From Bryobacterales bacterium (GTDB lineage: Bacteria; Acidobacteriota; Terriglobia; Bryobacterales; UBA6623): 37,822 nt of DNA. Below the pieces are notes generated by a model that saw nothing but the letters and a program-made list of their open reading frames with translations, searched no databases and was not told the origin of the DNA. Both the position numbers and the translations under genes were made by a program. This document shows, in pieces, positions 1,706-37,822 of this stretch (position 1 is the first letter of the stretch; each line of letters opens with the position of its first letter). Location of the stretch: assembly GCA_028819575.1 (NCBI GenBank), contig JAPPLB010000003.1, positions 1-37,822 on the forward strand, given 5' to 3'.

Positions 1706-1788
1706 ACCGAGGGGACAACCGACTCACCCTGCCGAGACGGCCGCCGCAGCAAGGAACCTCGATGGGCAGTAACTGCTTTGTGCGTGTT

Positions 1789-1836
1789 GCCGGCCATATC
1801 TCGTGATACGGACGACATGTGGTGAGAAATGCAGGT
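1789..1836 (+). repeat. Right half of palindromic repeat (copy B)
   Basis: The terminal repeat GTGGTGAGAAATGCAGGT (1819-1836) is preceded by a diverged version of the right-half body (GGCCATATCTCGTGATACGG against GGCGGTCGTATCGCGTGCTT in the full copy). It lies between two convergent genes. The TAA stop codon of the M23 gene (1836-1838 on the minus strand) begins on the last base of the terminal repeat. No matching left half is seen upstream. Confidence 0.7.
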
Positions 1837-23823: not shown

Positions 23824-23983
23824 GCAGTCCGTGGTGAAACCGCGCGTAGCGCCGAGAGCGGCGAGGCGGCAGGCTGACAAGGCGCGACGAGGGAGCATAT
23901 TGGACATATTCGACCGAGGAGCAACGCAGTTCAGCCGGGATGCATCGCCGCTTGAATGCAGCGGGGCTTTTGCCACGGGCTGC
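23824..23983. repeat. Second palindromic element with pairable ends (copy H)
   Basis: This non-coding stretch begins with GCAGTCCGTGGTGAAA and ends with TTTTGCCACGGGCTGC. The ends are inverted repeats matching at 13 of 16 positions, and the three mismatches become G-U pairs in RNA, so all 16 can pair. The centre holds the direct repeat CATATT-GGA-CATATT flanked by CGACGAGGGAG and CGACCGAGGAG. It is unlike the GTGGTGAGAAATGCAGGT family except for a shared short ACCACG-type core. It occupies most of the 326-bp gap between the leucine-rich repeat and beta-lactamase-like genes. A TAAACT hexamer just past its right end may be the -10 of the latter. Confidence 0.55.
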
Positions 23984-34947: not shown

Positions 34948-35046
34948 GACCTGTATTCTCACCACGTGGCAAGGCGAAGTTCTTGAGAGGGCCGTCAGGA
35001 CGAGGCGCAAGCCGGGCGGAGGAAAAAGGCGCGCGCCGCTTGGCGC
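34948..35046 (+). repeat. Left half of palindromic repeat (copy F)
   Basis: GACCTGTATTCTCACCAC (34948-34965) is the left terminal repeat with one base substitution and one base missing. The following body matches the full copy: 34984-35046 and 37318-37380 are identical at 62 of 63 positions. Similarity stops in the hairpin (GGCGCGCGCC-GCTT-GGCGC) at about 35046, and no right half is found. The 35047-35138 remainder, with a short CACGAATCACG-type run, has no feature I can name. Confidence 0.8.
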
Positions 35047-35138
35047 CGGCAACACGGCCTGTGAGGTTTGTCACCAATCATGAGTCACGAAACACGAATC
35101 ACGGCCTTTGGGGCGCCTCGAGCGCACTTCCCGCAGCT

Positions 35139-35945: not shown

Positions 35946-35951
35946 AGTCTA
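35946..35951 (-). promoter_or_regulatory. Possible -10 element of the uracil-DNA glycosylase gene
   Basis: TAGACT on the minus strand ends 6 nt before the ATG at 35939 and begins with the TAG stop codon of coaBC (35949-35951). It would allow leaderless expression independent of coaBC. The overlap with a required stop codon makes chance agreement more likely, so confidence is low. Confidence 0.25.
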
Positions 35952-37208
35952 GCGGCTGGAGCGGGAAGACTCAACCGCTTTTCGAAGATGGACGACCTTG
36001 TCGAGGATGCGCGCCGACATCTCTCGCTTGGACATGCTGGGCAACTCGGTTGCTTCGCCGGTCGAGTCCACAAGCCAGCCTTGGTTCAGGGAAGATCCGA
36101 AGCCGGTATCGGAGGTATCCGAACCGACCGGATTCGCAACGATGAGGTCGCAGTTTTTCGCCGCGAGTTTGGCGCGGGCGTTCTCGAGGACATCGTTCGT
36201 TTCCGCGGCGAAGCCGATGACGATGCGGCCGCCCTTCAGACGGCCGACTTCGAGGAGGATGTCCGGTGTGGGCTCCAGTTCGAGAGGGGGCGGCTCCCCA
36301 TGCTTCTTGAGTTTGGTCGGAGCAGCGGCGCGCGGGCGATAGTCGGCGACGGCGGCGACGGCGGCAAAGATCGTTGACTCGCTGAGCCTCTCGAGGACGG
36401 CGCGATGCATCTGCTCGGCGGTTTCGACCGGGATCACCTCGCAGCCGTTGGGCGGGGTGAGAGCGACAGGACCGCTCACGAGAACGACTCTGGCTCCTCG
36501 CTCGCGGGCCTCTCGAGCGAGAGCGTATCCCATGCGTCCACTCGAGCGGTTGGCGATGAACCGTACGGGGTCGATCGCTTCCTGTGTGGGGCCGGCGGTG
36601 ATGAGGACGGTCTCGGAAGCAAGATCGTCCGTTCGCGTCCGTCCTTCGAGAGCGCCCTCGGCGGTTTCGACGATTTGCTCCAAGTCCGCCAGCCGGCCCG
36701 GCCCGACCATGCCGCACGCGAGATCGCCGGCATCCGGTTCGACGATGGTGACGCCGCGAGCGGCAAGCTGCGCCACATTGCTCTGGGTCGCCGGGTGCCG
36801 CCACATGTTGGTGTTCATGGCGGGCGCGACGACGACGGGGCCGGTATAGGCCAGATGCATGGTGGTGAGGAAGTCGTCGGCGATGCCGTGGGCGAACTTC
36901 GCCAGGATATCGGCGGTCGCCGGAGCGACCAGCAGCAGGTCGCTTCGTTGAGCCACGTCGATGTGTTCGATCGAGCTGTCTCTTATTTCCGAGTCGGTCT
37001 CGCCGAACAGGTTCGTGATCACCTTGCGGCCGGTGAGAGAGGCGAAAGTGAGGGGCCCGACGAAGCGTTGCGCCGAGTCGGTCATGACGACTTGCACCTG
37101 GTGGCCGCGATCGGTGAGCAGGCGGACAAGCTCGGCGGCCTTGTAGGCGGCGATGCCGCCGGACACGCCCAACACGATCGAATGCTGCGAAGCCGTTTTC
37201 GTGGACAT
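35949..37208 (-). CDS. coaBC: Phosphopantothenoylcysteine decarboxylase/phosphopantothenate-cysteine ligase
   Basis: A 419-residue bifunctional enzyme for two consecutive steps of coenzyme A synthesis. The N-terminal flavin-dependent decarboxylase (CoaC, about 1-190) has VSGGIAAYK, His82 in IEHIDVA, the PAMN motif at 129-132 and Cys165 in ACGMVGPGRL. The C-terminal ligase (CoaB) has ITAGPTQEAIDPVRFIANRSSGRMG and AVADYRPR followed by the KLKK segment. Both domains are complete. It is the first gene of a likely operon with udg. A repeat element starts about 70 nt upstream. Confidence 0.96.
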   Translation of the reverse strand: MSTKTASQHSIVLGVSGGIAAYKAAELVRLLTDRGHQVQVVMTDSAQRFVGPLTFASLTGRKVITNLFGETDSEIRDSSIEHIDVAQRSDLLLVAPATADILAKFAHGIADDFLTTMHLAYTGPVVVAPAMNTNMWRHPATQSNVAQLAARGVTIVEPDAGDLACGMVGPGRLADLEQIVETAEGALEGRTRTDDLASETVLITAGPTQEAIDPVRFIANRSSGRMGYALAREARERGARVVLVSGPVALTPPNGCEVIPVETAEQMHRAVLERLSESTIFAAVAAVADYRPRAAAPTKLKKHGEPPPLELEPTPDILLEVGRLKGGRIVIGFAAETNDVLENARAKLAAKNCDLIVANPVGSDTSDTGFGSSLNQGWLVDSTGEATELPSMSKREMSARILDKVVHLRKAVESSRSSR

Positions 37209-37238: not shown

Positions 37239-37280
37239 CGACGGCACTGCTCCGTTGCGGAGAGTTCAGGGCGAGGAGTT

Positions 37281-37485
37281 GACCTGCATTTCTCACCACG
37301 TGGCGAAGCGAAGTGCATGAGAGGGCCGTCAGGACTAGGCGCAAGCCGGGCGGAGGAAAAAGGCGCGCGCCGCTTGGCGCGCGCAGGCGTACTTGAACAG
37401 TACGTTGAGCACGGCAAGCAAGCGCAACGAAGTCATGGCGGTCGTATCGCGTGCTTCGGCCGTCATGTGGTGAGAAATGCAGGTC
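37281..37485. repeat. Full-length palindromic repeat element (copy D), 205 bp
   Basis: This is the reference copy of the family. It starts with GACCTGCATTTCTCACCAC and ends with its exact reverse complement, giving perfect 19-bp terminal inverted repeats. Inside are a strong hairpin (GCGCGCGCC at 37363-37371, GCTT loop, GGCGCGCGC at 37376-37384), a smaller one (CGTACT-TGAAC-AGTACG), and a conserved core shared with copy F. A 33-codon minus-strand frame (37335-37436) is probably incidental, since its stop is not conserved in F. It is non-coding and could be a miniature inverted-repeat transposable element or a structured regulatory repeat. No target-site duplication is apparent. Confidence 0.8.
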
Positions 37486-37749
37486 AGAGGTCCCGGCTCA
37501 TCGTCCGCGATCTCCTGCTCGAGGGTTTTTCTCAAGAGGGGTCGACGCGAATCTGTGGCACGGCCTCGACAAGCCGGCTGGAGGAGCGGGCCGGAGGCTG
37601 GGGCTGCGGGCGGCAATCCTATTCGGCAGCGACGCCGATGGCGGACGCCTGCGTGGAGCATCAGGGCATTCGCCGCCGCCGCCGGTCTCGACGTCTTCCT
37701 CGTTCTCGTCGTTGACCGGGGCGTCCCGCGATTTGCTATGTTCCTTCAT
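37486..37749 (-). pseudogene. Possible decayed or frameshifted small gene between repeats
   Basis: No intact gene fills 37486-37770. On the minus strand, ATG 37749 begins a charged peptide (KEHSKSRDAPVNDENEEDVE) with coding-like codon bias. Bias then moves to other frames: PAAAANALMLHAG, then DCRPQPQPPARSSSRLVEAV, then LRKTLEQEIADDEPG. Several frameshifts and one stop would be needed to join them. That fits a degraded gene or sequencing errors, whose 3' end meets copy D. I cannot identify a product. Confidence 0.3.
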
Positions 37750-37770: not shown

Positions 37771-37822
37771 GCCTGCATTTCTCACCACGTGGCGAGGCGA
37801 AGTGCGTGAGAGGGCCGTCAGG
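37771..37822 (+). repeat. Left half of palindromic repeat (copy E), cut by window edge
   Basis: The window ends with CCTGCATTTCTCACCAC, the left terminal repeat, and the start of the core (GTGAGAGGGCCGTCAGG) as in copies D and F. The rest of the element lies beyond the window. Confidence 0.75.

Follow-up and report, generated by a model that had tools for sequence, protein, structure and literature searches.

A probably IS1380-mobilised MITE with a phylum-wide folded body and variable ends in Acidobacteriota

The inverted-repeat feature near the right end of the window (the whole 37,822-nucleotide stretch analysed here, which is an entire contig, C66, of a 5.37-Mb draft genome) is a MITE, that is, a non-autonomous transposon, and it is its body, not its ends, that is conserved across the phylum, a point that an earlier sequence-only reading of this DNA could not see. 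The explanation that we favour as a whole, and hold to be likely, is that the element is moved by IS1380-family transposases and belongs to a family in which a constant body, forming a strand-specific structure, is combined with exchangeable ends.

Results

Anatomy of the element and its copies in the window

Exact 19-bp arms, GACCTGCATTTCTCACCAC at 37281–37299 and its complement at 37467–37485, are present as the sequence-only reading had described for a 205-bp element, and about 0.0001 such inverted repeats (no more than 300 bp apart) would be expected in the window by chance. The ends, however, lie 2 bp further in than had been proposed. Alignment of the copies gave the true element as CCTGCATTTCTCACCAC...GTGGTGAGAAATGCAGG at 37283–37483 (201 bp), the outermost GA/TC being host DNA, a remnant of a decayed 4-bp target duplication (TTGA/TCAG). 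The full-length covariance model R2 matched this interval with 121 bits (E 5e-26). The features of the window are as follows.

37283–37483, plus strand (the best-folding strand): MITE, 201-bp variant
37283–37299, plus strand: left terminal repeat CCTGCATTTCTCACCAC, common to the copies
37467–37483, minus strand: right terminal repeat, exact complement of the left
37279–37282, no strand: left target-site copy, decayed (TTGA), position set by other copies
37484–37487, no strand: right target-site copy, decayed (TCAG), from other copies and the empty site in G002, a species of the same genus
37336–37359, plus strand: 24-bp insertion, present in the 201-bp and absent from the 177-bp form (alignment A1)
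37363–37384, plus strand: 9-bp GC stem with a GCTT loop, as already seen in the sequence-only reading
37360–37434, plus strand: conserved central core of about 75 bp, phylum-wide
23825–23982, plus strand: second-subfamily element, 158 bp, with CAGYCCGTGGTRAAA-like ends and the same body signature
37772–37822, plus strand: start of a further copy, ending at the contig end
1–54, plus strand: end of a further copy, beginning at the contig start
34951–35110, plus strand: decayed copy; G002 has a similarly sized insertion at this position
1785–1835, plus strand: right-end fragment of a copy
35949–37208, minus strand: neighbouring gene (ORF list), the MITE lying 75 bp upstream of its start codon

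The 158-bp element was also matched by R2 (37.8 bits, E 2.8e-7). From our own reading of its translation, we take the neighbouring gene to be probably coaBC. No transposase-type ORF was found in the 201 bp, in line with what had been noticed earlier, and the MITE has no coding capacity, because the lengths of 174, 175, 176, and 177 bp differ by non-multiples of three and because the conserved columns follow the hairpin. Recurrent heptamer-type repeats (CACGAAT/CACGAAA; CACGAATCACGAAACACGAATCACGG) occur at window positions 34951–35110 and in the right flanks of L003, L015, and L036, within or adjoining MITE copies of two species, and resemble a second element-associated repeat.

Abundance and insertion of the element

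The sequence-only reading had proposed a genome-wide count of copies, and the sequence proved not to be unique. Across the 5.37 Mb of the genome there are 598 exact occurrences of the 12-mer TGCATTTCTCAC and a single one of the reversed control, and the 205-bp query gave 40 matches of at least 93% identity over nearly the whole length, together with three shorter ones at 82–83%. A profile search of an 829-kb sample of the genome detected 112 loci, comprising 55 full copies and 57 fragments and 1.8% of the bases; extrapolation to the genome gives roughly 360 full copies and 725 loci, which is rough because the sampled contigs were not randomly drawn. Sizes of 177 and 201 bp are dominant, and 53 of the 55 full copies are intergenic, though 86% of the sample was called coding by a simple gene caller. 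Many contigs begin or end within a copy, and the element therefore breaks assembly. Units between MITE ends that lie 500–2630 bp apart consist of ordinary host sequence with no transposase. Palindromes of 34 to 38 bp were also observed (L061:2124-2157, L061:8844-8877, L080:8886-8919, and L074 near 14303), in which both terminal repeats stand with almost nothing between them and some of which adjoin YTAR-like bases; they may be minimal elements or deletion remnants.

Intact copies are flanked by a 4-bp direct duplication of the form YTAR (CTAG, CTAA, TTAA, TTAG, also TTAT). Among 50 copies of 160–215 bp, 18 have exact duplications, as compared with a mean of 6.3 and a maximum of 13 in 2000 shuffles. 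Moreover, 7 of the non-palindromic left units match directly and 0 match inverted, so that they are genuine duplications rather than a continuation of the inverted repeat. In G002, where the flanking DNA is about 86–97% identical, all seven testable full copies are absent (7/7), the window copy included. Several of the empty sites carry exactly one target, for example GGCTAA-element-CTAAAACG versus GGCTAGAACG, and the empty sequence at the site of the window copy is exactly as long as a single 4-bp target would make it; at the remaining sites, the flank has diverged or unrelated sequence has been gained. Reciprocally, one G002 copy is absent from G000. The earlier suggestion of a miniature element moved in trans is thus borne out by the repeats, the YTAR duplications, the empty sites, and an IS1380 element with the same ends, as described below.

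IS1380-family elements share the ends and the target of the MITE

A transposase gene bounded by the same ends, for which the sequence-only reading had proposed a search, was found in the IS1380 family. The genome has two intact IS1380-family transposase genes (NF033539, E 4e-115; Pfam DDE_Tnp_1_4, E 3e-148), and the two resident elements, about 1.7 kb each and 97% identical, have CTAA and CTAG as target duplications. One of their ends, CC(C/T)GCATTTCTCACCA, agrees with the MITE end at 16 of 16 positions in one copy, and the left terminal repeat of the window MITE (37283–37299) is identical over those 16 bases to one end of a resident element; the other end, CCCGGATATCTCACCA, agrees at 12 to 13 of 16. 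One resident copy lies within a MITE of the 201-bp form, where it occupies the internal CTAG. In a comparison set of 80 IS1380 loci from many named organisms, most loci with readable ends have CCCG(C/G)ATTTCTCAC or a close variant together with a YTAR duplication, the end form common to most readable relatives being CCCGSATTTCTCAC; in its ends and in its target, the MITE thus agrees with this IS1380 group. Judging from these likenesses, an IS1380-family transposase is the probable trans-acting mover of the MITE.

Two closer relationships to IS1380 were considered and rejected. The MITE is not an autonomous IS1380 insertion sequence, having no DDE transposase ORF, nor an internal-deletion derivative of one, as it shares no internal sequence with the IS. 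A search of 61 IS1380 loci for the core gave no match besides one judged to be due to chance.

Many of the genomes that bear the body are fragmented drafts, and an IS1380 match was found in only 9 of 29 body-bearing genomes. For the 8 genomes with both, the element end is closer to the IS1380 end of its own genome than expected by chance (7 of 20000 permutations). For example, the IS end GCATTTCTCAACGGGGT in G159 equals the element end GCATTTCTCAACGGGGT, and IS and element likewise share CCCGCATTTCTCACAC in G325 and CCCGGATTATGCATA in G293. As a separate observation, contig C1 of G008, a single-contig genome of the GTDB family of the window genome, has 28 IS1380 transposase matches, and the MITE query found nothing there: the presumed mover is abundant and the cargo absent.

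The body is conserved across the phylum and the ends change

In G042, from another family of the same order, the ends match at 17 of 18 positions and the central core of about 75 bp is 84% identical, while the arms between ends and core are 37–53% identical, yet still complementary. Searched with a covariance model of the core, 396 genomes of the phylum Acidobacteriota gave matches in 46, which represent 32 genera and belong mostly to other classes; many of the 46 have at least 12 core matches. Sequence comparison agrees with this phylum: G013, which is in the GTDB family of the window genome, is identical over 4419 bp to a contig labelled Bryobacterales bacterium, and G159 is identical over 3490 bp to one labelled Acidobacteria bacterium. 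The loci that were read are elements of 174–178 bp with terminal repeats and YTAR duplications, which align nearly without gaps. Beyond the phylum, where two of the three search routes covered small collections, plasmids gave only a 32-bp Sphingomonas match, judged to be chance after reading the region; no match was found in viral contigs searched with two patterns, and none in phages. A Rhodocyclaceae match (L183, 24 bits) was also judged to be chance. When R2 was run on about 60 IS1380 loci of many phyla, the only match outside the window genome was in an acidobacterium (L174).

At least three CCCG-type ends are found on the same body: TTTCTCAC, TTATTCATGA, and TTATGCATA. Within G333, identity between L294 (CTAG duplication) and L295 (TTAA duplication) is 91% in the body but 43% in the end, and within G372 the corresponding values for L334 and L335 are 92% and 43%; some genomes with two end types have contamination of up to 7%, that of G173 and G200 being 2%. 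A body-only tree, built on 132 columns only, requires at least seven changes of end type, and, for the commonest end type, branches with good support demand no fewer than four.

A further subfamily of exactly 158 bp has unrelated ends (CAGYCCGTGGTRAAA), YTAR duplications, and the same loop signature. Its members include the window element at 23825–23982 and that at L174:1772-1929 (uncultured Acidobacteriota, CATOST010000046), which has a perfect CTAG/CTAG duplication and directly adjoins an IS1380 element. No autonomous partner of this CAGYCCGTGG-ended subfamily was found in the sample. Larger units of about 260–318 bp with CAGYCCGTGG ends and YTAR flanks were also seen (L056:18401-18660, L057:8335-8594, L059:7171-7487, L069:2486-2754, and L086:1673-1990); they have no match to the body model, and another MITE family may therefore share these ends.

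Fold, covariation, and strand asymmetry

The whole 201 nt fold into one hairpin, to which the terminal repeats belong together with the body. The predicted energy is –64.1 kcal/mol (z –8.4) with DNA parameters and –117.2 kcal/mol (z –9.9) for RNA of the plus strand, versus –92.0 for the minus strand. The consensus fold of 25 non-redundant sequences is a single rod of 55 pairs, 42 of which change on both sides with pairing kept, a result reached in 0 of 500 shuffles. There are 259 compensatory cells, as against 84.7 in shuffles; covariation scores are 0.561 for the real, 0.205 for the shuffled, and 0.08–0.11 for the slid alignments. The most constant columns lie largely in or beside the internal loops (AAGGCG; GCAAC; CGCAGTAG). 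Some members of the family have a loop pair, CGAA/GCAGTAG, that is similar, as a pattern match only, to the loop-E (bulged-G) motif. No family of Rfam 15 matches the element at the gathering score.

In all 27 non-redundant copies, the plus strand gives the better fold, the mean difference being 12 kcal/mol. When pairs are taken from the plus-strand prediction, G-T outnumber A-C pairs 84:11 in the body. This excess depends in part on the choice of strand for the prediction: when pairs predicted from both strands are counted, the ratios are 8:5 (body) and 22:8 (ends).

Discussion

A proposed mechanism and its alternatives

We propose that IS1380-family (DDE) transposases recognise the terminal repeats of the MITE in trans and integrate it into intergenic YTAR targets, mostly CTAG, where the 4-bp duplication would result. 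The body, about 130 bp between the ends, would form a strand-specific hairpin whose conserved internal loops are kept along with pairing by compensatory change, and the ends would be replaced to fit whichever IS1380 type is present. The body would work as a single-stranded structure, most likely as RNA that binds a constant factor, and such binding would explain why the body is kept while the ends change. A foldable body that is retained while the ends differ to fit the local jumping genes suggests that it is preserved for a purpose; because the loops stay the same whichever type of transposase is present, their partner is more likely to be an unvarying host factor, or the fold itself. That the body acts as RNA is a tentative suggestion drawn from the patterns of pairing, to which we would give slightly less than an even chance. 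The fuller proposal, in which the body would be a mobile gene for a structured RNA (or single-stranded DNA), a bacterial analogue of SINEs that exchanges its ends among IS1380-type transposases across Acidobacteriota while its constant loops act with an unchanging factor, seems to us quite possible, if not quite probable.

All the hallmarks of a MITE are present, and the element could be an ordinary one moved by IS1380, with a functionless body, palindromy kept by template switching between the arms, and phylum-wide sharing due to horizontal spread. Correction from arm to arm would give concerted change of the two ends, and the distribution in the phylum (46 of 396 genomes) is patchy. Such correction should, however, yield perfect Watson-Crick arms without internal loops, whereas the loops are among the most constant columns, G-T pairs persist, the length is constant at 174–178 bp, and all 27 copies fold better on the same strand; we consider this origin quite unlikely. 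A body that works as a single-stranded DNA hairpin, at the replication fork or in a transposition intermediate, and is recognised by a host or transposition protein would account for the strong fold with DNA parameters and for the inclusion of the terminal repeats in the same hairpin, and the strand specificity suits single-stranded DNA as well as RNA. IS1380 transposases, however, are DDE enzymes that act on double-stranded ends, the genome has no single-strand (Y1) transposase, and the loop-E-like bases of CGAA/GCAGTAG form an RNA-type motif, if by pattern match only, all of which leaves the DNA hairpin somewhat unlikely.

A transcription terminator, mRNA stabiliser, or other cis-regulatory hairpin kept by the host, as which the element had also been read, would be expected to be very stable and to lie between genes, as it does, and 11 of 48 placed copies are in convergent gaps versus about 7.5 expected from gap length. 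Most placed copies, however, lie in tandem gaps, where 15 have the same orientation as their neighbours and 16 the opposite; divergent gaps hold 6, below the expectation from gap length. With no terminal T-run, and with copies absent at the same sites of the sister species, this role appears very improbable. The mover could also be sought outside IS1380. Elements of the IS5 family likewise insert at CTAG, and two of them (L095 and L096) lie at CTAG sites, including within MITEs, but the IS5 ends (GGCCTGTTAACACTAA) are unrelated to those of the MITE, in contrast to the IS1380 end with its identity over 16 bases, and the chance that IS5 moves the MITE is slim indeed. A REP/REPIN-like repeat moved by a RAYT (Y1) transposase, another of the earlier suggestions, would likewise be intergenic, palindromic, and high in copy number. 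The draft genome gave no Y1_Tnp match whereas control genomes were positive, and the element forms a complete unit, with terminal repeats as well as 4-bp direct target duplications; the chance of this origin is next to negligible. As to insertion within MITEs, L095 and L096 illustrate that MITEs offer landing sites to other insertion sequences.

Significance

In the usual view of MITEs, selection acts on the ends, the sequence between them drifts as filler, and few families last longer than a genus. In the present family, what stays constant across a phylum is the interior, and it is the ends that can be replaced. By its anatomy the element is a MITE, unusual in having a body more durable than its ends. 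Should the body prove functional, the element would be a nucleic-acid parasite under selection for a structure of its own, independent of any one transposase, and what the body binds would become a testable question. The results also link transposases of the IS1380 family with MITEs of very high abundance (1.8% of the sampled DNA) and explain many contig breaks in such draft genomes, and the covariance model supplied can be used for searching other phyla.

Comparison with known systems

The sequence-only reading knew of no named family with these ends, which holds within the databases and literature searched: in the open-licence literature, no paper was found that pairs IS1380 with such MITEs, describes the element, or contains its end sequences in a relevant context. 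IS1380-family elements (NF033539/DDE_Tnp_1_4) share with the MITE the terminal repeat CCYGCATTTCTCACCA and the 4-bp YTAR duplication, whereas the MITE has no transposase, shares no interior with them, and is about one-ninth of their length. REP/REPIN elements with RAYT are comparable as high-copy intergenic palindromes and differ in that this genome has no Y1 transposase and that target duplications are present. With the structured RNAs of Rfam, the body has in common covarying helices with conserved internal loops, but this RNA-like body lies inside a transposable unit. Eukaryotic SINEs are conserved folded bodies dispersed by the enzyme of another element; as an analogy only, the MITE shares the conserved folded body and the probable dispersal by a foreign enzyme, whereas it travels in the form of DNA bounded by terminal repeats instead of being reverse-transcribed, and its RNA is putative. 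Finally, ERIC, NEMIS/Correia, RUP, Chunjie, and QMITE are structured bacterial MITEs and, like the present element, are small and intergenic, with terminal repeats, hundreds of copies, and a hairpin formed by the whole unit. ERIC reaches up to 711 copies in one genome, as given in a review of prokaryotic MITEs that does not mention IS1380 (PMC10969869). These families are described from restricted host groups, with one end type each, whereas here the body is phylum-wide and the ends are exchanged.
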